Shown piece by piece: positions 2,529 through 35,684 of a stretch of DNA of 64,000 nucleotides. The translations under genes were made by a program, and so were the position numbers. Source of the DNA: Mesorhizobium sp. B2-1-1 (GTDB lineage: Bacteria; Pseudomonadota; Alphaproteobacteria; Rhizobiales; Rhizobiaceae); NCBI RefSeq assembly GCF_006442975.2, contig NZ_CP083954.1, forward strand, positions 3,417,501-3,481,500, in the 5' to 3' direction. Position 1 is the stretch's first letter. Each line of letters opens with the position of its first letter. The notes beneath the pieces are model-generated. The model saw only the letters and a list, made by a program, of their open reading frames with translations, did no database searches and was not told the origin of the DNA.

Positions 2529-2897
2529 TCAGCCGATATGGGCTTTGTAGGCGGCCTCATCCATGAGGCTGGCGAGCTGGCTTTCGTCGGCAAGCTTCAT
2601 TTTCCATAGCCACCCGGCGCCGGTCGCCGCCGAATTGACCAGCGACGGATCGGACGACAGCGTTGCGTTGGCCTCGGTGATCTCGCCGTCGACCGGCGCG
2701 TAGACGTCGGAGGCCGCCTTGACGGATTCGACCACGACGGCGGTGTCGCCCTTGGCGAGCTTCTTGCCTGTTTCGGGCAGTTCGACGAAGACGAGGTCGC
2801 CCAGCTGCTCCTGCGCGTAGTCGGTGATGCCGACGGTGGCGATGCCACCCTCGACGCTGAGCCACTCGTGATCGGCGGTGAAATAGGTCTTTGCCAT
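2529..2897 (-). CDS. gcvH: Glycine cleavage system H protein
   Basis: A 122-residue lipoyl carrier that shuttles the aminomethyl group from GcvP to GcvT. The lipoylation motif [11 protein letters not shown] is intact, with the modified lysine near residue 60. The reading frame is open further upstream (to about 3023), but that extension lies inside gcvT and is not H-protein-like. The ATG at 2897 giving [12 protein letters not shown] matches the family start and length. It lies 7 bp after the gcvT stop and 17 bp before gcvP, so the three genes form one operon. Confidence 0.97.
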
Positions 2898-2904
2898 ATG
2901 AAAA

Positions 2905-4002
2905 TTATCCTTTGCGGTAGCGATGCGGGAGGAAAGGCAGGGAAGAAACGTCGACGGGAATCTTCGTTCCGCGCACGTCGGCGAAAATCCGAGTTCCGGG
3001 TTTCGCCAAGGGCGTCGGGACATAACCCATGGCGACGGGATGGCCGGCAGACGGGCCGAAACCGCCCGAGGTTACGTGGCCGGCGGGATTGCCGTCGGCG
3101 TCAAAGAGCGTGGCGCCGGCGCGCACTGGCTGGCGGGCATCCGGCCTCAGGCCGACGCGCTTCTGAGCGGAGCCGCGCTCGACGGCGGCGCGCAGCGCGT
3201 CGGCGCCGATAAACGTGCCGTTGGCGCGGATGTCCTTCGGGATGGCCCACATCAGCGCCGCGCTTGCCGGATCGGTTTGCGCGGTGATGTCCTGGCCGTG
3301 CAGGCAGAGGCCGGCTTCCAGCCGCAGGCTGTCACGGGCGGCAAGGCCGATCCACAGCACGCGCTCGTCTTCGAGCAGCTTCGCCACGAGACCGCGCGCG
3401 TCTGCCTCAGGCAGGCCGATCTCAAACCCGTCCTCGCCGGTGTAGCCGGACCGGCTCATGAACCAGTTCTTTCGCGGTTCGATGCCATGCATGAACAGCA
3501 GCGACCCGGTCTCGATACCGGCGCGGGAAAGCGCCGCCCAGGCCTCGGGACCCTGGATGGCGAGGAAGACCCGGTCGAGCGGTTCGACCTTGACGTCGAA
3601 GCCGGTCGCAAGCTCGCGCAAATGCTTCTCGTCGGCGATCGCGTTGCCGGCATTGGCGACGACCATGAAGTTGGTATCGCCCAGCCGGGTGACGATCAGA
3701 TCGTCCAGGATGCCGGCGGCCTCGTTCAGGAAAAACGTCAGCTTCGACTGGGAGATTTCGAGCGCGCCCGCATCGAGCGGACAGGCACGGTCGAGCAGGA
3801 GAACCGCGCCCGGCCCGCTGACCCTGAACAGTTTCATGTGCGAGATGTCGAACAGGCCCGCATGTTCGCGGGTGTGAAGATGCTCCTTCATGACGCCGGC
3901 CGGGTAGGTCAGCGGCATCGACCAGCCGGCAAAGGCGCCAAAGCGCGCACCGGCAGCTGCGTGGACGTCTTCGAGAGGAAGGTGTTTGGTGTCGCCCGTC
4001 AT
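2905..4002 (-). CDS. gcvT: Glycine cleavage system T protein (aminomethyltransferase)
   Basis: A 365-residue T-protein that transfers the methylene group from the lipoyl arm of GcvH to tetrahydrofolate and releases ammonia. The ATG at 4002 ([14 protein letters not shown]) is chosen because the family is about 365 residues long. The longer open frame up to 4269 runs through the riboswitch and is non-coding. GcvT-type motifs include [12 protein letters not shown] near the N-terminus and [18 protein letters not shown] in the middle. First gene of gcvTHP, with a tandem glycine aptamer about 50 bp upstream. Confidence 0.97.
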
Positions 4003-23631: not shown

Positions 23632-24159
23632 CGGACCGGGTAAGAGTATCCGTCAATCCGGCAAGGTTACCCATTTACCTTAATCCAAGCGATTCACGAG
23701 GCTTGGTTAAGAAACTGTTGATTTTCATAAGCTCTTGCGCAAATGTGCGGCCACAGACAGAGCGACGCCGGCACGAGGACAGACAGCCGGGTCGATCAAA
23801 AAATACCCCATGATGCTCAGGTCCGCCGCATCTCCTGGGTCCGTGGGGTCGGCCGGCCGGCGCTGGCACATAGTGGCCTCCTCGTACCGCTGCCAAACGC
23901 CGACCGGCCCCCTTTCAAAATAGCATCAGGATTCTGCGCCAACCTCCGGATATCAGGAGCTTTTTGCGCACAGGATATCGACAGCATTTGGACTGTAAAA
24001 GGCGAGCCACGATGTGGAGAGCTGCGGCGCACGCTCTCTTGCCATCCGGCGGAGGGCGTTGCTCCTCACTTCATACATATGGCGCCCAAGGGGCTTGCTT
24101 CAAGCCCGGGTTCCTCCCGTAAAACCGCGGCCCTAGCCAATAGGAGCGGAGTGACGGGA
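23632..24159. other. 528-bp region without a supported gene, left edge of the accessory segment
   Basis: No convincing coding frame: the open plus frame from 23743 reads into the monooxygenase gene but its N-terminal 139 residues are not protein-like. Two hairpins stand out. One is TTAATCCAAGC (23680-23690) facing GCTTGGTTAA (23701-23710) just after pleD. The other is a 7-bp perfect stem GGGCTTG/CAAGCCC with a 3-base loop (24091-24107) about 50 bases before the monooxygenase start. Neither is followed by a T tract, so they are not classic terminators. Confidence 0.5.
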
Positions 24160-25653
24160 ATGCGTGCACCGACAGATGGATCGCGTCGAAATCATGCGGT
24201 GATTGTCGCCGGGGGCGGCCCGACAGGATTGATGCTGGCAGGCGAACTCGCATTGGCGGGCATCGACGTCGCCATTGTCGAGCGGCGCCCGACCCAGCAG
24301 CTGATTGGCTTGCGCGCGGGTGGCCTGCACGCACGCACAATCGAGGTGCTCGACCAGCGCGGGATCGCCGACCGGTTCCTCTCCCAGGGGCGATGCTTCC
24401 CGACCGTCGGCTTCCACATGATCCGTTTGGACATCAGCGACTTTCCCAGCCGGCACAACTATCTGCTGGCGCTGCGGCAAAACCACATCGAGCGGATATT
24501 GGCCGACTGGATCAGCGAATTGGGGGTGCCGATCCATCGCGGACAGGAAGTCACGGATTTCATGCAGGACGACAGTGGCGTGGATGTGGGGCTTTCCGAT
24601 GGCCGACGGATGAAGGCGCAGTACCTCGTCGGATGCGACGGTGGACGCAGCACGATCCGCAAGGCGGCGGGCATCGAATTCGCTGGATGGGATCCGACGA
24701 TGAGCTGGATGATCGCCGAGGTCGAGATGTCGGAAGAACCGCCATTGGGCTTTCGCAGCGACGCCCACGGAACCCATGCGATAGGCAAGATCGAGGACGG
24801 CGACCGGTTGGGCATCGTGCTGACCGAGAAACGACTGATCATCGGTGGTGAACCGACATTGGACGATCTCCGCGAGGCGCTCACCGTTATCTATGGCACC
24901 GATTTCGGCGTCCACAGTCCGACCTGGCTCTCTCGTTTCACCGATATGACGCGCCAGGCTGCCGCTTACCGCGACAGACGTGTCCTGCTGGCCGGCGACG
25001 CTGCGCATATCCATCCCCCAATGGGCGGACAGGGCCTCAACATCGGCGTGCAGGACGCGGTCAACCTGGGATGGAAGCTGGCCCAGGTCGTCAAACGGGC
25101 ATCACCGGACAGCCTGCTCGACAGCTACCATGCCGAGCGCCATCCGGTCGCCGCCCGTGTGTTGCGCAACACGATGGCACAGGTCGCGCTTCGGCGCATG
25201 GATGACCGCACCAAGGCTCTGGGCGACACCATTGCCGAACTGCTCGGCATGGACGAGCCTCGCAAACGCATCGCGGCCGAAATGTCCGGCCTGGACGTTC
25301 GTTACGGCTTGGGCGAGCGCCATCCGTTGCTTGGGCGGCGAATGCCCGATCTCGATCTGCTCACCGCCAGCGGGCCGGTGCGGCTGTTTACCTTGCTGCA
25401 TCATGCCCGGCCGGTGCTGATCAACCTCGGCACGCCCGGCATGCTGGACATCAAGCCATGGGCGGATCGGGTCCAGCAGGTCGACGCCGTGTACGACGGC
25501 GACTGGGAGCTGCCAGTTCTCGGGGCCGTCGCCAGGCCCGTCGCGGTGCTGATCCGCCCGGACGGGTACGTGGCATGGGTTGGTTCCGGAAGCCAACAGG
25601 GACTGGCCGAAGCGCTGACCACCTGGTTCGGGCCGCGCGTTGATGTGGCGTAG
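24160..25653 (+). CDS. FAD-dependent class A monooxygenase, rifampicin-monooxygenase (Rox)-like
   Basis: A 497-residue flavoprotein hydroxylase of the PheA/TfdB family. It has the FAD-binding GGGPTGLMLAGEL near the N-terminus, the DG motif LVGCDGGRSTIRKAAG, the GD motif LLAGDAAHIHPPMGGQGLN, and a C-terminal thioredoxin-like domain without catalytic cysteines. The block GLHARTIEVLDQRGIADRFL closely resembles actinobacterial rifampicin monooxygenase as I remember it, so it may hydroxylate a large aromatic or naphthoquinone-type compound, but the true substrate is unknown. The start is the ATG at 24160; a GTG at 24151 has AGGAG 4 bases upstream and is possible. It stands alone, about 150 bp before the GntR gene. 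Confidence 0.82.
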   Translation: MRAPTDGSRRNHAVIVAGGGPTGLMLAGELALAGIDVAIVERRPTQQLIGLRAGGLHARTIEVLDQRGIADRFLSQGRCFPTVGFHMIRLDISDFPSRHNYLLALRQNHIERILADWISELGVPIHRGQEVTDFMQDDSGVDVGLSDGRRMKAQYLVGCDGGRSTIRKAAGIEFAGWDPTMSWMIAEVEMSEEPPLGFRSDAHGTHAIGKIEDGDRLGIVLTEKRLIIGGEPTLDDLREALTVIYGTDFGVHSPTWLSRFTDMTRQAAAYRDRRVLLAGDAAHIHPPMGGQGLNIGVQDAVNLGWKLAQVVKRASPDSLLDSYHAERHPVAARVLRNTMAQVALRRMDDRTKALGDTIAELLGMDEPRKRIAAEMSGLDVRYGLGERHPLLGRRMPDLDLLTASGPVRLFTLLHHARPVLINLGTPGMLDIKPWADRVQQVDAVYDGDWELPVLGAVARPVAVLIRPDGYVAWVGSGSQQGLAEALTTWFGPRVDVA

Positions 25654-25775
25654 CAGGGTCGAGGCCGGCCTGGCGCATCGCCCGCAAACGCGTGCTTGTC
25701 ATGCGTTGCGAGCTTTTACGGTGCTAGGTCTCCTGACATCCCGTTGACAGGAGGTACCATCTGTGCAGAAATTGG

Positions 25776-25791
25776 TTGGACCATTGGACCA
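25776..25791. promoter_or_regulatory. Tandem TTGGACCA repeat, possible GntR operator
   Basis: Two perfect adjacent copies of TTGGACCA (25776-25783 and 25784-25791) lie just upstream of the likely GntR start at 25804. FadR-type GntR proteins usually bind short TGGT/ACCA-type half-sites near their own promoters, so autoregulation is plausible. A separate inverted repeat CTCCTG (25730-25735) / CAGGAG (25748-25753) lies upstream. No footprint information is available from sequence. Confidence 0.4.
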
Positions 25792-25803
25792 CTTGGAACG
25801 CGC

Positions 25804-26538
25804 GTGGATCAAAACAGCCTGCCACCTATTCAGACGACGGCGCGTGACGACGCCGTTCTGAAGGCGTTGGTAGGCTTTGTTCGTGCCGAGGCCCTCCAGC
25901 CGGGCGAGCGGCTGCCAACGGAACGCATCCTGGCCGAGCGGCTGAAGGTCAGCCGCAACACGGTGCGCGAGGCGCTGACGCGCTGGGAAGGGCTCGGCCT
26001 GGTCGAGCGCCGGCAAGGCAGCGGCACCTATCTCAAGGCAGCCGTTTCGCCGGACATGTTGCATCTGCCGCTGACGCTTGCGGGCGGCAACGACTTCACC
26101 AGCCTGATGCAGACGCTTGAAATCCGTCGCGCGCTGGAGGCGGAAGCCGCCGCCCTTTGCGCCGAACGCGCGAGCCAGACCGATATCGCCGAAATCGAGC
26201 GCAAGCTCGACATCATGGAGCAGGCGTTCCGCACGCGCGAGGGCATGTCTTCGGAAGAGGACTGGGAGTTCCACCAGGCGATCTACAGGGTTTCCGGCAA
26301 CCCGCTGTTCGAACAGATCATCGCCGCCATGCACGAATTGTTCCACCGCTTCTGGGAGCATCCGCTGGGCGTGCGCGATTTCGGCCACGCCAGTTTTCCC
26401 TATCATCGGACCATTTACGAGCGCATCGCCGCGCGCGACCCGCACGGCGCCCGCGGCGAGGCGCTCAAGCTGATCGCCACCGTCGAGGACGATCTGAAGC
26501 GCGGCGCCGCCAAACTCAAACTTTCGAGCCAGACATGA
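25804..26538 (+). CDS. GntR family transcriptional regulator, FadR/FCD subfamily
   Basis: A 244-residue regulator. The N-terminal winged helix has the GntR signature LQPGERLPTERILAERLKVSRNTVREALTRWEGLGLVERRQGSGTYL-like block (about residues 30-75). The C-terminal FCD domain has metal-ligand candidates in DWEFHQAIYRVSGN, HELFHRFWEH and YHRTIYERI. The GTG at 25804 is the best in-frame start, with GGA 6 bases upstream. Oddly, the strongest ribosome-binding site (AGGAGG, 25750-25755) instead precedes a GTG at 25763 that opens a 32-codon frame overlapping this start. The stop overlaps the ATG of the PLP enzyme gene (ATGA), so it probably controls that gene and the ABC importer in response to the imported or degraded ligand. 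Confidence 0.87.
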   Translation: MDQNSLPPIQTTARDDAVLKALVGFVRAEALQPGERLPTERILAERLKVSRNTVREALTRWEGLGLVERRQGSGTYLKAAVSPDMLHLPLTLAGGNDFTSLMQTLEIRRALEAEAAALCAERASQTDIAEIERKLDIMEQAFRTREGMSSEEDWEFHQAIYRVSGNPLFEQIIAAMHELFHRFWEHPLGVRDFGHASFPYHRTIYERIAARDPHGARGEALKLIATVEDDLKRGAAKLKLSSQT

Positions 26539-27722
26539 ACGAACATCCCTCAGGTTTCGATCACGACTATCTTGCCGAGGCGGCGACGCTTCTGGCGCAT
26601 GACGAACCTTTCCCGGGTGGGGCGGTGGTGCCGCCGATCTACCAGACATCGCTGTTCACCTTCGCCAGCTATGCCGAGATGGCGGATACTTTTGCCGGCA
26701 AACGGAAGCAGCCGATCTATTCGCGCGGCGACAATCCGACGGTGATGGAGTTCGAGGCACGCGTCGCCGCGCTCGAGGGCGCCGAGGCCGCGCGCGGCTT
26801 TTCCAGCGGCATGGCGGCGATCAGCGCCACGGTGCTCGCCTTCGTCGGCGCCGGCGAGCGCATCGTTGCGGTGCGCAATTGCTATGGTGATGCCTATCGG
26901 CTGTTCGAGCGGCTTTTGCCGCGGCTCAACATCAGGGTCGACTATGTCGACGGCTCCGATCCGGATGCGGTGGCGGCGGCCCTTCCGGGCGCCAGGCTGC
27001 TCTATCTGGAGAGCCCGACCTCGATGATGTTCGAGTTGCAGGACCTGGCTCACCTGACCCGGCTGGCGAAGGAGCAGGGCATCGTCACCACGATCGACAA
27101 TTCCTGGGCGACACCGGTGTTCCAGAAGCCGATCACGCATGGCGTCGATCTGGTGCTGCATTCGGCTTCGAAATATCTCGGCGGCCATAGCGATACGGTC
27201 GCCGGCGTGGTGGCAGGCTCGGCCGCCCACATCAAGCACATCAACGAGCAGACCTATTCCTATCTCGGCGGCAAGCTTTCGCCCTTCGAGGCCTGGCTCT
27301 TGCTGCGCGGGCTGCGCACGCTGCCGCTGCGCCTGCCGCATCACATGAAGAGCGGGCTTACCATCGCCGAGCGGCTGAAGGCGCATGGCAATGTCGAGCG
27401 CGTGAACCACCCCGCCTATTCGAACCATCCGGGCAAGGCGACGCTTGCTGGTTACGCGGGGTTGTTCTCCTTCGAGGTCACCGAGGATATCGACATCCCC
27501 GTCTTCGTCGATGCGTTAAAATATTTCCGCATCGGCGTGAGCTGGGGCGGCCATGAGAGCCTGGTCGTGCCGGCCAAGGCGTCGCTGGAGCAGACGCCGG
27601 GACTGAATTCGATGGCGCGCTTCGGCGTCAGCCCCCGAACAATCCGCTTCAATGTCGGATTGGAAAGTGTCGAGGACCTGTGGGCCGACGTGGCGCAGGC
27701 CTTCGAAAAAGCCAGAAAATAA
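26535..27722 (+). CDS. PLP-dependent Cys/Met-metabolism enzyme (cystathionine gamma-synthase/beta-lyase family)
   Basis: A 395-residue fold-type I PLP enzyme. All key elements are present: YSRGDNPTVMEFE (Tyr/Arg binding the PLP phosphate of the neighbouring subunit), FSSGMAAI, CYGDAYRLFE (stacking Tyr), IDNSWATPVFQKP (Asp contacting the PLP nitrogen), SASKYLGGHSD (Schiff-base Lys) and RTIRFNVGLESVEDL (carboxylate-binding Arg). The sequence does not decide between cystathionine beta-lyase, gamma-lyase or a cysteine-S-conjugate lyase. Translational coupling with GntR, and the ABC importer 29 bp downstream, suggest a catabolic role on an imported substrate rather than methionine synthesis. The start is fixed by the ATGA overlap; the longer open frame is a shadow of the GntR gene. 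Confidence 0.88.
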   Translation: MNEHPSGFDHDYLAEAATLLAHDEPFPGGAVVPPIYQTSLFTFASYAEMADTFAGKRKQPIYSRGDNPTVMEFEARVAALEGAEAARGFSSGMAAISATVLAFVGAGERIVAVRNCYGDAYRLFERLLPRLNIRVDYVDGSDPDAVAAALPGARLLYLESPTSMMFELQDLAHLTRLAKEQGIVTTIDNSWATPVFQKPITHGVDLVLHSASKYLGGHSDTVAGVVAGSAAHIKHINEQTYSYLGGKLSPFEAWLLLRGLRTLPLRLPHHMKSGLTIAERLKAHGNVERVNHPAYSNHPGKATLAGYAGLFSFEVTEDIDIPVFVDALKYFRIGVSWGGHESLVVPAKASLEQTPGLNSMARFGVSPRTIRFNVGLESVEDLWADVAQAFEKARK

Positions 27723-27751
27723 CAAGCCGCTTCAAAATGGGAGTCTTGAAG

Positions 27752-29029
27752 ATGAAAAAACTGACCGTCATGCTTGCCACAGCCGCGGGATTGGCGATTT
27801 CCGCCGGAAACGCGCTGGCCGATTCGACCCTGAAAATGGTCGAAGTCATCACCAGCCCGCCGCGCACGGAGTTCCTGAAGAAGCAGATCGCCGAATTCGA
27901 AAAGGCCAATCTCGGCATCAAGGTCGAGCTGATCTCGCTGCCCTGGGGGCAGGCTTTCGAAAAGTTCCTGACCATGGTGCAGGCAGGCGATACGCCCGAC
28001 GTGGTCGAGATGCCGGAACGTTGGATGGGCCTCTACGCCAACAACGCCCAGCTCGAGGATCTCGGCCCGTACATGGCCAAGTGGGACGACGCCAAGACGC
28101 TCGGGGAGCGCGCCAAGCAGTTCGGCTCGACCGTCAATAACACCCAGTTCATGATCCCTTACGGCTACTATGTGAACGCGCTGTTCTGGAACAAGAAGCT
28201 GTTCAGGGAAGCCGGTCTCGACGGCCCGCCGGCCACGCTCGACGAGTTCGTCGCCGATTCCAAGAAGATCTCGGCGTTGCCCGGCAAATACGGCTACTGC
28301 CTGCGCGGCGGGCCCGGCGCCTTCAATGGCATGCACATGTTCATGAACATCGCCGCCGGCAAGGGCGGCTACTTCAACGAAGACGGCACCTCGACCATCA
28401 ACGAGGAGGGCTCGGTCAAGGGCCTGCAGATGCTGGCCGACATGTACAAGCAGGGCCTGGCGCCCAAGGACGCGGTGAGCTGGGGCTTCAACGAAACCGT
28501 CACCGGCTTCTATTCCGGCACCTGCGCCATGCTCAACCAGGATCCGGACGCGCTGCTCGGCATCGCCGACAAGATGAGCGCCGACGACTTCGCCGTGGCG
28601 CCGCTGCCGGTCGGGCCGAGCGGCAAGTCCTATCCGACGCTCGGCTATGCCGGCTGGGCAATGTTCGCCAATTCGCAGCACAAGGACGACGCCTGGAAGC
28701 TGATGGCGACGCTGCTCTCGCCCAAGGACAATCTGGAATGGGCCAAGGAAGTCGGCGTCGTCCCGATCCACAACGGCGCCGACCAGGATCCGCATTTCAA
28801 GACCGAGCAGTTCAAGGGCTGGTTCACGGAGCTCAGCGACAGCGCCAAGTATGAAATGGTGACGCCGCCGACGCATCTGGAGAACCTCGGCAATTTCGTC
28901 GACCAGGTGGCGATCAAGAATTTCCAGGAAGTGCTGCTGGGCCAAAAGACGGCCAAGGAGGTTGCCGACCAATGGGCCGCCTTCCTGACCAAGGAACAGC
29001 AGGACTGGATGGCGAAGAACAAGAAGTAG
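27752..29029 (+). CDS. ABC transporter substrate-binding protein, carbohydrate type (family 1)
   Basis: A 425-residue periplasmic binding protein with a Sec signal peptide (MKKLTVMLATAAGLAISAGNALA, cut before DST). Family-1 solute-binding features are visible: EFLKKQIAEFEKANLGIKVE near the N-terminus, QAGDTPDVVEMPERWMG, and TLGYAGWAMFANSQHKDDAWKLMATLLS. The ATG at 27752 has GGAG 8 bases upstream. Such proteins bind mono- to oligosaccharides, polyols or glycerol phosphodiesters. It is followed by a palindromic repeat and then the two permease genes and the ATPase gene. Confidence 0.9.
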   Translation: MKKLTVMLATAAGLAISAGNALADSTLKMVEVITSPPRTEFLKKQIAEFEKANLGIKVELISLPWGQAFEKFLTMVQAGDTPDVVEMPERWMGLYANNAQLEDLGPYMAKWDDAKTLGERAKQFGSTVNNTQFMIPYGYYVNALFWNKKLFREAGLDGPPATLDEFVADSKKISALPGKYGYCLRGGPGAFNGMHMFMNIAAGKGGYFNEDGTSTINEEGSVKGLQMLADMYKQGLAPKDAVSWGFNETVTGFYSGTCAMLNQDPDALLGIADKMSADDFAVAPLPVGPSGKSYPTLGYAGWAMFANSQHKDDAWKLMATLLSPKDNLEWAKEVGVVPIHNGADQDPHFKTEQFKGWFTELSDSAKYEMVTPPTHLENLGNFVDQVAIKNFQEVLLGQKTAKEVADQWAAFLTKEQQDWMAKNKK

Positions 29030-29037
29030 TTTTTCTT

Positions 29038-29164
29038 CCTTCTCCCCGTTCACGGGGAGAAGGTGGCCCGATAGGGCCGGATGAGAGGCGGCGCTACGTT
29101 CTGTCAGCCTGGCGCTGCCCCTCATCTGCCTGCCGGCATCTTCTCCCCGTATACGGGGAGAAGG
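29038..29164. repeat. RIME-like palindromic intergenic repeat between binding-protein and permease genes
   Basis: Two near-identical palindromes frame the element: 29038-29063 (CTTCTCCCCGTTCACGGGG core) and 29140-29163 (CTTCTCCCCGTATACGGGG core). Between them, GGATGAGAGGCGGCGC and GCGCTGCCCCTCATC are complementary, so the whole 127 bp can fold into a branched structure. The pattern matches the Rhizobium intergenic mosaic element type as I recall it. Its place inside a transport operon, after the gene whose product is needed in excess, parallels the REP sequences in malE-malF: it could stabilise the upstream mRNA or damp read-through (inference). Confidence 0.82.
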
Positions 29165-29209
29165 GTGCTGTCGGCTTCGCCGGCACCCACTCACCACTGT
29201 TGAGCCCAA

Positions 29210-30133
29210 ATGACCTATGCCGTTTCCGAAATACGACCCGCCGGGAGGCCGCGCCGCAAGCGGCTGACGCACGCTGCCACCGAACCCTGGCTTTATCTCA
29301 GCCCGGCGATCATCCTGCTGGTCGTGGTGCTTTTGGTGCCGCTGGTCATCGGCATCAGCTATTCGTTCCGTAAGTTTTCGGCCTTCAAGTCGGAATATGT
29401 CGGGCTCGGCCAGTACCAGGCGATGCTGTCGGATGCCGTGCTCGGCCAGGCGCTGGTCAATACGTTGTGGTGGACGCTCTCCAGCCTGTTCTTCCAGTTC
29501 TTCCTCGGCCTTGGCCTGGCGCTGCTGCTCGACAAGCCGTTTCGGGGCCGCAAGGTGGTGCAGGCGCTGGTGTTCCTGCCCTGGGCGGTGCCGTCCTTCC
29601 TGTCGGGCCTGACATGGGCATGGCTGTTCAATCCGATCATCGGGCCGCTGCCGCACTGGCTGTTCGCGCTGGGGCTGAAGGCCGAGCCGACCAACGTTCT
29701 CTCCGATCCCTCGACCGCCATGTGGGGGCCGATCGTCGCCAATGTCTGGTTCGGCATCCCGTTCTTTGCCATCACGTTGCTGGCGGCACTGAAATCCATT
29801 CCCTCGGAACTGCATGAGGCGGCAGCGATCGACGGCGCCTCGCCTTGGCAACGCTTCACCAAGGTGACGCTGCCGTTCCTGGCGCCGACCATCGCCATCA
29901 CGGTGATGCTGCGTACCATCTGGATCGCCACTTTCGCCGACCTGATCTTCGTCATGACCGAGGGCGGGCCGGCCGGGTCGACCAACACGGTGCCGGTCTA
30001 CATCTATGTCAGTGCCTTCAAGTCGCTGGACAAGGGCTACGCATCGGCGGTTGCCGTGCTGCTGCTCGTCCTGCTCATTGCCTATGCGATTGCGCTGATC
30101 GCCATCCGCCGCTCTCTGGTGAGGCACGTCTGA
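29210..30133 (+). CDS. ABC transporter permease, sugar type (MalF/UgpA-like)
   Basis: A 307-residue inner-membrane protein with six hydrophobic helices beginning LYLSPAIILLVVVLLVPLVIGISY. The EAA loop that docks on the ATPase is ELHEAAAIDGASPWQRFTKVTLPFLAP. It pairs with the next permease (TGATG overlap at 30131-30135) and the ATPase to form a type I importer. About 46 bp separate it from the palindromic repeat. Confidence 0.92.
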   Translation: MTYAVSEIRPAGRPRRKRLTHAATEPWLYLSPAIILLVVVLLVPLVIGISYSFRKFSAFKSEYVGLGQYQAMLSDAVLGQALVNTLWWTLSSLFFQFFLGLGLALLLDKPFRGRKVVQALVFLPWAVPSFLSGLTWAWLFNPIIGPLPHWLFALGLKAEPTNVLSDPSTAMWGPIVANVWFGIPFFAITLLAALKSIPSELHEAAAIDGASPWQRFTKVTLPFLAPTIAITVMLRTIWIATFADLIFVMTEGGPAGSTNTVPVYIYVSAFKSLDKGYASAVAVLLLVLLIAYAIALIAIRRSLVRHV

Positions 30134-30981
30134 TGATTGCGGGACGCTCATCTTCGCAGCGCTTCTTCGGCGGCGTCGGGCTCTATGCGGCCATCGCGGC
30201 CTATGTGATCTTCGCCCTGTTCCCGATCTTCTGGACGCTGAAGATATCGGTTACACCGGAACGGCTTCTCTATTCCGAAGGCATCACCTTCTGGCCGTCG
30301 CAGATGACGTTGCAGAACTTCGTCACCGTGCTCGAGGCGACCGACTTTCCGCGCTATTTCCTCAACAGCGTCATCGTCTCGGTTTCGACGGCTGCACTGG
30401 TGACTGTCATCGCGACGCTTGCCGGCTATGCCATGTCGCGCTTCACCTTTCGCGGCAAGGCGGCACTGGCGCTGATGCTGCTTTTGACCCAGACTTTCCC
30501 GCTAGTCATGGTCATTCCACCGATCTATCGCGTGATGGGCCAGATCGGCCTGATCAACAGCCTGACCGGGCTGATCATCATCTACACCGCCTTCAATACC
30601 GCGTTTGCAACCTTCCTGATGCAGTCCTTCTTCGACGGCATACCGAAGGACCTGGAGGAGGCGGCGATGATCGACGGCTGCACACGCGCGCAGGCGATGC
30701 GCCGGGTGATCGTGCCGCTGACGCTACCCGGCATGGGCGCCACGCTCGGCTTTGTCTTCACCGCTGCCTGGAGCGAACTCCTGTTCGCGCTGATGCTGAT
30801 CTCCAGCGATGACAAGAAGACCTTCGCCGTCGGCCTGCTCACCTTCATCGGCAAGTTCGCCGTCGACTGGGGGCAGATGATGGCGGCGTCGATCCTGGCG
30901 CTGATCCCGGTCTGCATCTTCTTCGGCTTCCTGCAACGCTATCTCGTCACCGGTCTCACCGCCGGCGCCGTGAAGGGATAA
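30133..30981 (+). CDS. ABC transporter permease, sugar type (MalG/UgpE-like)
   Basis: A 282-residue second permease with six hydrophobic helices. It has the MalG-type start [21 protein letters not shown] and the EAA loop [28 protein letters not shown]. Its ATG shares a base with the stop of the first permease. The frame is open from 29845, but that part is antiphase to the first permease and not coding. The ATPase gene begins 3 bases after its stop. Confidence 0.92.
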
Positions 30982-30984
30982 TCG

Positions 30985-32052
30985 ATGGCTTCCGTTACGC
31001 TGGAAAAAGTCCGCAAAGACTATGGTGGCGTGCGTGTGTTGCACGCGGTCGACCTCGACATCGCCGACGGCGAGTTCGTCGTCCTCGTCGGTCCGTCCGG
31101 CTGCGGGAAATCGACGCTTCTGCGCATGATCGCCGGTCTGGAGGAGGTTTCCGATGGCGAGATCCGTATCGGCGAGCGGTTAGTCAACGACGTCGCGCCG
31201 AAGGACCGCGACATCGCCATGGTGTTCCAGTCCTACGCCCTCTATCCGCATATGGACGTGTCTAAGAACATGGGCTTCAGCCTGATGCTGAGGAAGGCAG
31301 AGAAGCAGGCGATCGACGCGCGTGTCGACGGAGCCGCCAGGCGGCTTGGGCTGGACAATTTCCTGCAACGCCTGCCGCGCCAGCTTTCCGGCGGCCAGCG
31401 CCAGCGCGTCGCCATGGGCCGGGCCATCGTGCGCGATCCCAAGGTCTTTCTTTTCGACGAGCCGCTTTCGAACCTCGACGCCAAGCTGCGCGTGCACATG
31501 CGCGCCGAGATCAAGGCGCTTCACCAGCAACTGAAGACCACGTCCGTCTATGTCACGCATGACCAGATCGAAGCCATGACCATGGCCGACCGCATCGTCG
31601 TGATGCATGACGGCGTCGTCCAGCAGGTCGGCGCGCCGCTCGACCTCTATGACCGGCCGGCCAACATGTTCGTCGCCGGATTCATTGGCTCGCCCGGCAT
31701 GAATTTCCTGCCCGCGAGTGTTGAGAAGGGCGGCAAGGCGGATGCAGTGCTGTCCGATGGCCAGAAACTGCGATTGCCTGATGGCCTGCCACTCAGGGAA
31801 GGCGATGCGGTTACCGTCGGTTTGCGGCCGGAGCATATAAGGCTGGCGGATGACGGCCCGCTGCAAGGCGAAGTGGTGGTGGTCGAGCCGCTCGGCCTCT
31901 CGACGCAGTTCTACGTCAAGCTGGCCGGCCAGCAGCTTTGCGTGTTCGCCATGGGCCGCGCCGGCGTGAAGCCTGGCGAGACGGTGCGGCTATCGGCCGA
32001 TCCGGCGGCGCTGCATGTTTTCGACCCGAAAAGCGCCGACCGGGTAGGGTAG
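30985..32052 (+). CDS. ABC transporter ATP-binding protein, MalK/UgpC type
   Basis: A 355-residue ATPase. It has Walker [11 protein letters not shown]-loop [12 protein letters not shown], signature [15 protein letters not shown], Walker [13 protein letters not shown], and switch histidine [13 protein letters not shown]-terminal TOBE regulatory region of about 110 residues follows ([12 protein letters not shown]), as in MalK and UgpC. It completes the importer binding protein-permease-permease-ATPase and is the last gene of the likely operon that starts with the GntR gene. Confidence 0.94.
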
Positions 32053-32626
32053 GGGCGCGGCCGCCGAGCGGCCACTCTGTTGCCCGCTGGGCATATTCTA
32101 GCCATACGGCCTTTTGGCGAGTCGAAACTTGCTTCACCCGGGCCAACCGCTTTGCGGAGCCACATTAATAGAAACCTCCTCCTGCCGCCATCATGTGGCG
32201 TCCTTTCATCAATCAGTTTGGTTCTTGAATCGCCGCAACGCAGCGGGGGGGGGAGATTTATAATGCCTGCGAATAACAACTCCGCCGACGCTCGTATCAC
32301 TGAACCATGCCGGAGAATGACCAGCCTAGGCCGGTGAACCGGTATGTCAGAAGACGGCTTCCGTCTGCCATCACGCTCGGAGACCGGAGAATTGCTTTCA
32401 TACGCAGCGAAATCACGGAACAGATTCAGTCGCGAATTGACGCGTAGCGGACAGCGAGGGCAGCAGTATCAAGCCACGCTCTATCCCAGGGCGGCCGGCA
32501 AAGCAGCCTAAATCTCTTTGAACTCCACCGTCCGCGGCGGGATATGAGCTAGGCTCAGCCGTTTGGTATTCTTGATTTCTGGTCAACTGCCGCCCTACTT
32601 TGGGCCATCATCAGGGACCTAGACGA
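32053..32626. other. 574-bp region without a supported gene
   Basis: The sequence between the ABC ATPase and the mosaic hypothetical gene. Short open frames (for example 32080-32337) lack family likeness and consistent ribosome-binding sites. A run of nine G residues occurs near 32246-32254. On the minus strand a short piece ending in a stop near 32513 reads AHIPPRTVEFKEI, which could be the tail of a lost gene, but only about 23 codons are open and no start exists. It may be a recombination scar at the edge of incoming DNA. Confidence 0.4.
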
Positions 32627-33766
32627 ATGATCTCGGTTTGCGGATACATCGGGGCGGTGATCGGTTGGAAGGCGCTCGAAAATGCCGGCGACATCCTAGA
32701 TAAGATCGGCGAGACGCTGTTTGGCGGACGTTATAAAGCGATCTACGAGGACGTCGCATCCAAGCTGCGCGCTCATACAGGCGCGGTTCCAGCAAACCAC
32801 GATTTGGAGCACGCCATTCGACTCAGTGAACTCACCTCTTCACTCGTGATGGTGCGCATGTATGTCGATACGCAAGAGGCCGACCAGTTGCGGCTTGGCG
32901 GACGGCCGCCGGAGCGTCGCGCGAGGATTCAGTTCGCTAGTGCCGCGCGCCGCTATCTGCATAAGCAGATCGGATTGGGCGGGCCATTCAAGCTAGAATC
33001 CAACAAGGACGTTGTCGATGAAATAGAGACAAACTTGGACGGCGCGCTATCGGCTCGCGACTTTGCAGCGGTCCAGGCGAGTCTGGATGCAGCGTGCAAG
33101 CGCGTTCTGCGCGATCTCATCGCTGGAACGGAGCAGGGAAAGGACCAACTGGCCGTTCCTGCCGATTTCGCGTCATTTTTTCGTGGAAAGGCGACAGATG
33201 ATGAGCCGGGCTGGGCTCTTATTTTCCTTGCCTTCATGCGGGAGGCATTGAAGCAAAATCACAAAGCGGAGGTCGCCTTCGTCGCGTCTCGCCTTGGGTA
33301 TTTGCGCAATTCGCTACCGAAACTCGAAGCCAAATTTGACCAATTTTTGCAGATAGCGAATTCGATAAAGAACGACACATCTGATATTAAAGATGATATA
33401 TCTAAAATCCTAGCGATAGTTCAGAGACGTGAGTCTTATGTAATTGGAGGAATTAATTTTGAATTCCCCATTAAAATTGAAATAGCGATAAATGATCGTG
33501 GAGAGCTTATCATTTTCCACAATCGACCATTTAACGATGATTTGTCTAAACTCGAATTCAATATGGACGAAAATCGACTCTCTCTAATCATGATTAAAGG
33601 GTTCTCTTGTAATATACCAATAAGATCTGAGTTATCTGTGTTTATGAGAAAGTCTACACAGGCTCTAATGGTGCTTGTGAACGAGGAAGGTGGAAATCTA
33701 GTCGAGGGTGACTATGTGCCATTGCATGTCATGAAAAGGTACTTGGAATCACTTTCTTGTGGCTAG
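32627..33766 (+). CDS. Hypothetical protein of mosaic composition; N-terminal part resembles STAND/NLR-associated domain
   Basis: A 379-residue protein. The N-terminal part (about 1-230) is helical, has the block VPANHDLEHAIRLSELTSSL (54-73) and, later, EPGWALIFLAFMREALKQNHK. From memory, similar NHDL-x-RA and GW-x-x-F-x-x-x-EELK blocks occur in the N-terminal region of bacterial NLR-like STAND proteins, but no P-loop NTPase follows here. Residues about 232-268 look like a coiled coil (KLEAKFDQFLQIANSIKNDTSDIKDDISKI). The last 110 residues are beta-rich and unrecognised. Composition is split: 42 of 60 bases are G+C in 32881-32940 but only 19 of 60 in 33421-33480. This points to a recent fusion or horizontal origin. 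The start could be 32627 or slightly upstream. Function unknown; a defence-related role is a guess. Confidence 0.65.
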   Translation: MISVCGYIGAVIGWKALENAGDILDKIGETLFGGRYKAIYEDVASKLRAHTGAVPANHDLEHAIRLSELTSSLVMVRMYVDTQEADQLRLGGRPPERRARIQFASAARRYLHKQIGLGGPFKLESNKDVVDEIETNLDGALSARDFAAVQASLDAACKRVLRDLIAGTEQGKDQLAVPADFASFFRGKATDDEPGWALIFLAFMREALKQNHKAEVAFVASRLGYLRNSLPKLEAKFDQFLQIANSIKNDTSDIKDDISKILAIVQRRESYVIGGINFEFPIKIEIAINDRGELIIFHNRPFNDDLSKLEFNMDENRLSLIMIKGFSCNIPIRSELSVFMRKSTQALMVLVNEEGGNLVEGDYVPLHVMKRYLESLSCG

Positions 33767-34005
33767 GGCAAAGCTGCGTAGAGACAAATTCTCTGGATCC
33801 TTGCTGAGGCGCCGTGGCTTTTGTCGTGGAGATTTATGCGGTGACGACGCGCACGCCTTTCGCGGTTTATGGGAGCCGCTCGACAAGGCCCCTGCCTCGC
33901 GCGGGCTTTGTGGCTATAGCAGCCCTATCGGCAGCGCGATCCACTATGTTGGCCGTTATGCTGGATTTGACTACCAACCAATGAAATCAATGTTTTAGGA
34001 ACAAA

Positions 34006-34054: not shown

Positions 34055-34222
34055 TTACTTGATCTTGGTTTCCTTGAACTCGACGTGCTTCTTGGCAACC
34101 GGGTCGTATTTGCGGAACGACAGCTTGTCCGTCTTGGTGCGGCTGTTCTTGCTGGTCACGTAGAAGAAACCGGTGTCGGCGGTCGACAGAAGCTTAATCT
34201 TGATGTTTGCGGCTTTGGCCAT
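34055..34222 (-). CDS. rpmG: 50S ribosomal protein L33
   Basis: A 55-residue ribosomal protein with the alphaproteobacterial L33 sequence ([22 protein letters not shown], ending [10 protein letters not shown]). It has no CxxC zinc pairs, so it is the zinc-independent form. The ATG at 34222 is the family start; the open frame to 34327 is not L33. A strong terminator follows. The insertion sequence begins 122 bp upstream, close enough to sit at or near its promoter. Confidence 0.97.
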
Positions 34223-34343: not shown

Positions 34344-35684
34344 TGTCGTAAGCAGATGAGTTGTCCGGATTAGGTAGCACGTGAGTTGTCCGGTTTTTTC
34401 GCCAGCGGATGGAGGCTGGGGATGAAGCGGACGGCATGGCTACAGGACCGGAGAATGCAGAAGTTTCGAGACGTATTGAGCCGCTGGAATGGTGGCGATC
34501 TTTCGATGATGGAGGCAGGCGAGTTGCTTGGCATGTCGGAGCGGCAATTCCGACGCTACCGCGACCGGTACGAAGAGGCTGGGGAAGCAGGGTTGCTGGA
34601 TCGGCGCTTGGGCAAGCTTTCGACGCGTCGGGTGCCGGCGGAAGCGATTGAGGAGATGCTGGAGCTTTACCGTCATCGCTACCTCGGCTGGAATGTGAAG
34701 CATTTCCACGAGCACCTGCTGCGCGATCACCATTTCAGCTGGGGCTACACAGTCATCAAGACGCAGCTCCACGCGGCGGGGGCCTTGTGGAACGGGCCAA
34801 GCGGCGCGGTGCTCACCGGCGCAAGCGGGAGAGGAAGCCTTGCGAGGGGATGATGCTGCATCAGGATGGCAGCCGTCATCGATGGCTGGTGGGTGAGCCG
34901 ATGCTGGACCTGATCGTGACGATGGACGATGCGACGAGCACGATCTATTCGGCCTTCCTGATCGAGGAGGAAGGCACGGCGTCGAGCTTTCAGGGCCTTC
35001 TGGAGACATTCGTCGCCAAGGGATTGCCATCGAGCCTCTACAGCGATCGCGGCAGCCACTATTTCGTGACGCTGAAGGCCGGCGAGGCGGTCGACAAAAG
35101 CCGGCTGACCCAGGTCGGCCGGGCGCTCGAGCGGCTGGGTATCGAACATATTCCAGCCTATTCCCCTGAAGCGCGAGGCCGCTCGGAGCGGATGTTCTCC
35201 ACCTTGCAGGATCGGCTGCCGAGGGAGCTGGCGCTGGCCGGAATTGCCGACATCGAGGCCGCCAACCGGTTCATCGCACAGACCTACCTACCAGCTCACA
35301 ATGCCCGCTTCGCCAGGCCGGCCGCGGTCGAGGACAGCGCCTTTGTCGCCGCAGACCCGCAACAACTGGCCCAGATCCTGTGCATCGAGGAGGAGCGCGT
35401 CGTTGCCCGCGACAACACGGTCGCCTTCGCGCGGTTGCGATTGCAGCTGCCATAGAGCCCGATCCGGCATCACTTCGTCAAAGCCACCGTCAAGGTCAGG
35501 CACTACCCGGATGGAACCCTCGCGATCTTTCACGGGCCGCGCCGCATCACTCGCTACAGCTCTGACGGCGCCGCAATCGAAGACACTTGCCCCATCAGGC
35601 AAGCCGCGTGAACCGCTTCGACGCCAAAACAGAAGCGGACAGATCATGTGCTACCAAACCGGACAACTTGATTAGCTACCGACA
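34344..35684 (+). mobile_element. Insertion sequence, IS1202/ISNCY-like, 1341 bp, inactive
   Basis: Imperfect terminal inverted repeats of about 50 bp begin TGTCG on both sides. Shared blocks are GTTGTCCGG and GGTAGCAC (34360-34380 on the left; reverse complement at 35649-35668 on the right) and a second TGTCCG copy just inside each end. The element is flanked by an exact 16-bp direct repeat. Long target duplications and TGT ends are reported for the IS1202 group of former ISNCY elements; assignment to the 15-18-bp-duplication branch is my inference. The single transposase gene inside is broken. Confidence 0.88.
34422..35611 (+). pseudogene. Transposase of the IS1202/ISNCY-like element, frameshifted and with an in-frame amber stop
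   Basis: The first frame starts at 34422 (MKRTAWLQDRRMQKF; GGAGG 6 bases upstream) and encodes a helix-turn-helix region, MEAGELLGMSERQFRRYRDRY. The frame changes within a run of five G near 34776-34782, where three G would restore the expected reading AGLVERAKRRGAHRRK. The second frame carries the DDE catalytic core: VTMDDATSTIY, LYSDRGSHYF and SPEARGRSERMF. A TAG at 35453-35455 interrupts the same frame, after which SPIRHHFVKATVKVRHYPDG continues to a true stop at 35609-35611. Two independent lesions make this a pseudogene rather than a programmed frameshift. Confidence 0.9.

Follow-up and report, generated by a model that had tools for sequence, protein, structure and literature searches.

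The 64,000-nucleotide stretch analysed here (the window; Mesorhizobium sp. B2-1-1, contig NZ_CP083954.1, positions 3,417,501 to 3,481,500) carries at 32627..33766 of its forward strand a gene for a modular protein of 379 residues (P0001) that lacks a nucleoside triphosphatase (NTPase). By profile comparison of the sequences, the first ~240 residues of this protein are homologous to an N-terminal module, hereafter the N-domain, that elsewhere fronts STAND NTPase, tetratricopeptide repeat (TPR) or HEAT scaffolds. The window protein continues from the N-domain into a coiled-coil-like linker and closes with an orphan beta-rich module. We consider, with a little better than even confidence, that the gene is an NTPase-less product of domain shuffling in the style of NLR and STAND proteins, the most likely setting being conflict with mobile DNA, phages included. 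What emerges from the comparison is a module at the N-terminus of alphaproteobacterial NLR-like proteins, described by none of the family libraries searched, that occurs in at least five architectures: with an NTPase, with an NTPase and TPRs, with TPRs, with HEAT repeats and with the beta-rich end. The natural NTPase-free version allows the module to be tested alone, in 379 residues rather than in proteins of 900-1400.

The N-domain and its partners

The extent of the gene follows from its translation and from a full-length homologue that is 98% identical (P0002) and begins with the same MISVCGY as the start at 32627; a TTG at 32600 is a possible alternative in-frame start. An earlier reading of the window, made from the sequence alone, had picked out two motifs of the 379-residue open reading frame (ORF), and both are exact: NHDLEHAIR at residue 57 and EPGWALIFLAFMREALKQNHK at residue 193. 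That sequence-only reading had likened residues 1-235 to blocks preceding the NTPase of STAND proteins, noted the absence of an NTPase from the gene itself, and called the protein undescribed. Pfam contains no NTPase family that matches P0001 at E <= 10 and the protein has no Walker A (P-loop) pattern, so that it is not itself a STAND NTPase, as the earlier reading had it; nor is there a match at E <= 10 to a superstructure repeat family (TPR, HEAT, WD40 or LRR).

The N-domain (residues ~1-240, 32627..33346, forward strand) is delimited by homologue alignments, profiles and a structure model in which it is all-helical. Two signatures mark it, PxN[HN]Dx3AxRx3L and Wx3Fx5Ex2K; both are present in P0001, and five relatives (L141, L142, L148, L150 and L152) depart from them at one position at least. 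A search of 5.8 billion proteins with the single sequence returned three proteins only, all named Mesorhizobium: P0002, which stands for a 20-member cluster, P0003 (65% identical) and the partial P0004. A four-sequence profile (A1; 7,999 candidates scored) then matched P0005 to P0008 in the same set at E values of 1.4e-54 to 2.7e-41, and these four share with P0001 just the first ~240 residues. Later profiles found L141 (Roseiarcus fermentans) and L142 (a Rhodospirillales metagenome-assembled genome) in genome contigs, two relatives among 48 pattern matches. A search of the class matched two of 190 genomes, the window's own and G1273 (L144/L148), and the order of G1273 gave L146/L149 and L147/L150 (3 of 17 genomes matched, G1273 included). 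L152 came from a phylum search at E <= 0.01, in which the matching genomes were three of 59: the window's own, G174 and G936, the last of which was rejected as a chance match. In each of the ten modular relatives the match starts at or before residue 40 of the ORF, and wherever the taxon of a carrier is known it is alphaproteobacterial.

The homology was controlled in several ways. An N-domain profile built from the Mesorhizobium sequences only gives 201, 192, 161, 159, 127 and 84 bits on six of the relatives, and 21.8 (L149), 19.0 (L148), 9.8 (L152) and 6.9 bits (L150) on the distant four, against a best score of 4.8 bits among 1000 shuffled N-termini. Profile A5, built without them, scores L149, L152 and L150 at 58.8, 36.2 and 35.8 bits, with shuffles reaching 4.7; for profile A4 the highest shuffle is at 8.3 bits and the lowest relative, L150, at 16.2. 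Sixty ORFs of the genus with NB-ARC or NACHT hits (59 with a P-loop pattern) reach at best 3.4 bits when scored by the Mesorhizobium profile and 3.7 when scored by A5, and the N-domain is seen in none of these STAND-type ORFs as far as their loci extend. When the Mesorhizobium profile is aligned by hhalign with the four distant N-domains, the probability is 97.3 over 184 columns.

What follows the N-domain differs among the ten relatives: a P-loop or STAND-type NTPase in three, TPRs in four (with no NTPase in the stretch available), HEAT repeats in one and no recognised domain in two. The three with an NTPase are P0008, L148 and L150. P0008 has an AAA_16-like P-loop (E 7e-5, below the cut-off) with a Walker A at residue 317, close to the end of a short frame. 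L148 (1414 residues from a TTG start) has a Walker A at 360 and a Walker B-like LIVVDY at 410, its match to nSTAND_NTPase5 being at E 0.063, below the cut-off. L150, which runs off its contig after 974 residues, has a P-loop at 352 and matches to AAA_16 (34.7 bits) and NPHP3_N (25.2 bits) that are both above the cut-off, with NACHT below it, and TPR_12 follows the NTPase at 7e-16. Among the TPR proteins, P0005 has TPR_10 at 27.0 bits, slightly under the cut-off of 27.5; L142 has a weak TPR_10 (E 0.017) and its contig ends within the protein; L149 and L152 have TPR arrays, and the L152 locus stops before the end of the gene. HEAT_2 stands behind the N-domain of L141 at 1.5e-20, and P0006 and P0007 are the two in which nothing is recognised. 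P0001 to P0003 instead have the linker and an orphan beta-rich module of ~110 residues (residues ~269-379, 33431..33763, forward strand), delimited by homologues and the model; the first residues of this module are also seen in the partial P0004. Between P0001 and P0003 the N-domain is about 70% identical and the tail 59%.

Since the N-domain of P0001 is homologous to the N-termini of P0008, L148 and L150, the window protein appears to have the N-terminal effector or adaptor part of STAND/NLR-like receptors, and the resemblance of residues 1-235 to pre-STAND blocks holds. The contrary outcome, in which there would be no likeness to STAND-associated N-termini, was not obtained. Swapping of the C-terminal module, which the sequence-only reading had suggested, is likewise seen among the homologues, with STAND, TPR, HEAT, unrecognised and beta-rich ends.

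The protein is indeed undescribed in the libraries searched (Pfam, NCBIfam, PADLOC and PHROGs). P0001 is above chance in none of them: the best Pfam match is at E 0.12, NCBIfam and PHROGs give none, and PADLOC-DB 2.0.0 has no matching system component, its sole match being the JetC coiled coil at E=0.05. The N-domains of 11 members reach no curated cut-off (best E 0.013 in Pfam and 0.045 in NCBIfam), and neither PADLOC, with the window protein and seven relatives, nor PHROGs, with five proteins, gave a convincing match. Against PDB sequences, nothing fell below E 0.5 for the N-domain and the tail profile had no match at E <= 10. No description of the N-domain is contained in the parts of the literature found, where word searches cannot reveal a domain known by sequence alone.

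Several other searches were negative. The whole protein and the early profiles found no modular relative in genomes of the genus (146), family (394), order (397) or phylum (398), and neither did the initial scan of genome contigs; residues 1-240 against longer proteins had no match at E <= 10. Weak genome matches (L003, L004 and L006-L010) were rejected as chance, being unrelated or wrong-frame ORFs. Viral contigs contained no relative, including of the tail alone, and phages contained none. Plasmids contained no relative of the N-domain, the whole protein, the DNA of the segment around the gene or the linker of L149; one plasmid place at E=3 was taken as chance, and a match at E 9e-4 falls outside the N-domain, on residues 287-702 of the L148 fragment.

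Predicted structure and composition of the protein

The structure model (13 sequences) has a mean predicted confidence (pLDDT) of 61.5 and gave no trustworthy or informative fold match. Residues 31-220 are all-helical, with ten-residue pLDDT means of 49 to 90 and dips at 52-57 and 118-125. The pLDDT falls below 50 at residues 224-280 and is 54-66 in the tail. The model makes this tail beta-rich, with low confidence, as the earlier reading had suggested for an end that it could not recognise.

A Kyte-Doolittle (KD) scan identifies a hydrophobic N-terminal segment (residues 1-16, 32627..32674, forward strand), at 1.33 KD in P0001; in the family this property is kept and the sequence is variable. 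Of 12 members, 8 have an N-terminal segment at or above KD 1.4, compared with 16 of 75 control ORFs once family genes are taken out (Fisher p 0.003), or 18 of 78 with family genes left among the controls (p 0.004). This difference is no more than supporting evidence, because the members are mutually related and the controls were picked by length and by G+C content at third codon positions (GC3).

The linker (residues ~226-268, 33302..33430, forward strand) is a low-confidence helix in the model and has a heptad-like hydrophobic periodicity that is reached by one of 500 shuffles for P0001, by none of 500 for P0008 and by five of 500 for L152, in keeping with the coiled coil read there earlier. 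The periodicity is weaker in the remaining members, where 11 to 157 of 500 shuffles reach it.

Base composition changes within the gene. The earlier G+C counts (42/60 at 32881-32940 and 19/60 at 33421-33480) are exact, and the break that they implied is recovered by GC3, whose best change-point is codon 250, within the coiled-coil-like linker, with 0.63 before and 0.33 after and a log-likelihood gain of 15.4. None of 300 permutations, applied to the window gene only, matched this split. By the same measure, the gain is 12.9 and 11.4, with the direction reversed, in two of five neighbour ORFs and 2.6 to 4.4 in the remaining three; the low GC3 at the 5' end of those two may reflect over-long starts.

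Possible function

The N-domain stands in front of a P-loop or STAND-type NTPase in L148, L150 and P0008, as in bacterial NLR-like/STAND proteins with AAA_16, NPHP3_N or NACHT-like NTPases. P0001 differs from such proteins in having neither P-loop nor repeat scaffold and in ending in an orphan beta-rich module. Like effector-associated domains (EADs) and TRADD-N, which in the parts of the sources available are constant modules joined to many partners (PMC7159879, PMC8195603), the N-domain is constant and its partners varied. TRADD-N is RRM-like according to the same parts (PMC7159879, PMC8195603), whereas the N-domain is predicted to be all-helical; P0001 and the 11 members have no TRADD-N or EAD match in Pfam, no direct profile or fold comparison having been made.

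In our reading, the N-domain would take the position of the effector or adaptor in bacterial NLR-like receptors. In P0001 the coiled coil might self-associate, replacing oligomerization driven by an NTPase, and the beta-rich end might sense or bind a trigger, or a partner protein, so that control would pass to these two modules. The activated helical N-domain would then most likely use its hydrophobic N-terminus to disturb the membrane, or alternatively recruit a partner, and the cell would be halted. A role in conflict or defence signalling is probable, though inferred: no neighbouring gene points to defence, and the genes flanking five relatives (L141, L142, L148, L149 and L150) resemble, by eye, ordinary chromosomal genes more than defence islands.

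Two known systems point in different directions for the last step. BELL/HeLo-type executioners are, in the portion of the source available, helical bundles with a hydrophobic helix in an NTPase-free protein that has a separate C-terminal signalling part (PMC7889193). P0001, set beside that portion by description, is similar in lacking an NTPase and in its predicted helical part, hydrophobic segment and separate C-terminal module (PMC7889193). It differs in having no adjacent NLR gene, its neighbours being an ABC transporter ATPase gene and rpmG, and in the size of its helical part (~240 residues) and tail (~110). LypB, of the CARD-NLR-like system of Caulobacter, has an N-terminal domain (residues 1-193) before its ATPase and TPR parts that binds the CARD of LypA, again in the part of the source available (PMC13236601). 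As far as that description goes (PMC13236601), both are alphaproteobacterial NLR-like N-terminal domains, of ~190 residues in LypB and preceding ATPase and TPR-like parts there. Unlike LypABC-like CARD-NLR systems, P0001 has no ATPase, and no protease, nuclease or CARD partner is seen by eye among the neighbouring ORFs. The BELL parallel favours an executioner and the LypB parallel an adaptor; we lean, by analogy, towards the executioner. In its strongest form, which we regard as improbable, the N-domain would be a new membrane-active helical-bundle executioner spread by shuffling, and the gene a one-protein immune device whose beta-rich sensor acts through the coiled coil without a nucleotide switch.

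The alternative closest to this view, differing from it in the last step only, is that the N-domain docks a separate partner encoded elsewhere, as LypB docks on the CARD of LypA, with P0001 as a free-standing scaffold or decoy. This is possible, if rather unlikely. The conserved positions resemble an interaction signature more than a catalytic site; L152 has lost the E and the D that are otherwise conserved in the N-domain. The binding reported for LypB in the available part of its description (PMC13236601) also suits an adaptor; the N-domain is, however, likened to that of LypB by description and not by homology, and no obvious partner gene is seen beside the window gene. In L148, the end of the N-domain/STAND gene is overlapped by 4 bases by a gene for 351 residues (2751-3806, reverse strand) that matches nothing in Pfam at E <= 0.1 and may encode a partner or effector for this receptor.

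More doubtful is a regulatory or metabolic scaffold outside conflict, in which the N-domain would be a general interaction module used with TPR and HEAT proteins and the STAND links would be of the transcription-regulator type. The five TPR and HEAT proteins in whose available stretch no NTPase occurs are consistent with this, as are the ordinary flanks noted above. The very patchy occurrence of the gene (in one of the 146 genomes) and the swapping of modules nevertheless suit conflict genes better than core metabolism, and at the thresholds applied Pfam revealed no DNA-binding domain in the relatives scanned. That the gene is the decaying remnant of a STAND gene, with the NTPase deleted and a chance tail acquired, is very improbable in spite of the probable AlpA remnant alongside (see below) and the compositionally foreign C-terminal part, because such a tail would not stay conserved, and the full architecture, tail included, is kept in P0003 and in the 20-member cluster of P0002.

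The locus

The 146 genomes of the genus contain the gene in one case, the window's own, and profile A6 likewise matched the window's own genome among 56. By reading of the ORFs, the gene lies between an ABC transporter ATPase gene ending at 32052 and rpmG at 34055-34222. Of 144 genomes of the genus, 143 have a match to rpmG, and the side upstream of it is variable: in 40 genomes from which the region was taken, it is adjoined by the ABC genes in 29 and by pleD in the other 11, and no match to P0001 at E <= 1e-10 is found at any of the 40 loci. Between the ATPase match and rpmG lie ~74-213 bp in 16 of the 29 genomes (that of L130 being estimated from a truncated ATPase match), ~594-1309 bp in 13 and 2002 bp in the window. 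Gap contents were compared in 17 of the 29, among them 12 of the 13 long gaps. The window gap has little in common with these beyond the last ~75 bases before rpmG, the site of a terminator, and the segment from the ATPase gene to this terminator (32053..33990) is absent from the compared relatives.

Upstream of the gene, at 32307..32447 of the forward strand, is a probable remnant of a Phage_AlpA regulator, 46 residues that match its C-terminal half (Pfam E=0.0023, 18.2 bits, under the curated cut-off of 21). Neither attachment-like repeats nor a tRNA were found at the gap around the gene. The lack of shared gap content and the AlpA-like piece together place the gene at a variable site where a mobile element has probably left a trace, and its rarity and the variable gap confirm the accessory location assigned to it earlier.

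The insertion sequence (IS) that the sequence-only reading placed close to the gene is present, starting 620 bp downstream, with rpmG in between. Its transposase, which we take to be IS481-like, is split over two overlapping frames (34386-35455), with helix-turn-helix domains above the cut-off and rve at E 0.015. IS pieces of 89-90% identity lie directly past rpmG in two other species (L101 and L130), in loci that reach ~300 bases past rpmG, so that further species may be missed; several species may share the IS as a resident of this site.

On the other side of the gene, a block of ~8 kb (23743-32052) between pleD and rpmG contains an FAD-dependent aromatic-ring monooxygenase (Pfam) and, by reading, a GntR regulator, a cystathionine-lyase-like gene and a sugar-type ABC transporter. 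The regulator, lyase and transporter genes are in 29 of the 40 genomes and missing from 11; in those 29 the best single tblastn segment spans 0.1 to 1.0 of the monooxygenase. The gap between the ABC genes and rpmG holds a related segment of ~1.1-1.3 kb with small ORFs in L102, L105, L118, L121, L123, L124 and L125, and in five of these (L102, L105, L121, L124 and L125) an ORF with MSKK.KAA that may encode a small membrane protein. The L111 gap has a short ORF of 90 residues before rpmG, presumably DJ-1/PfpI-like.
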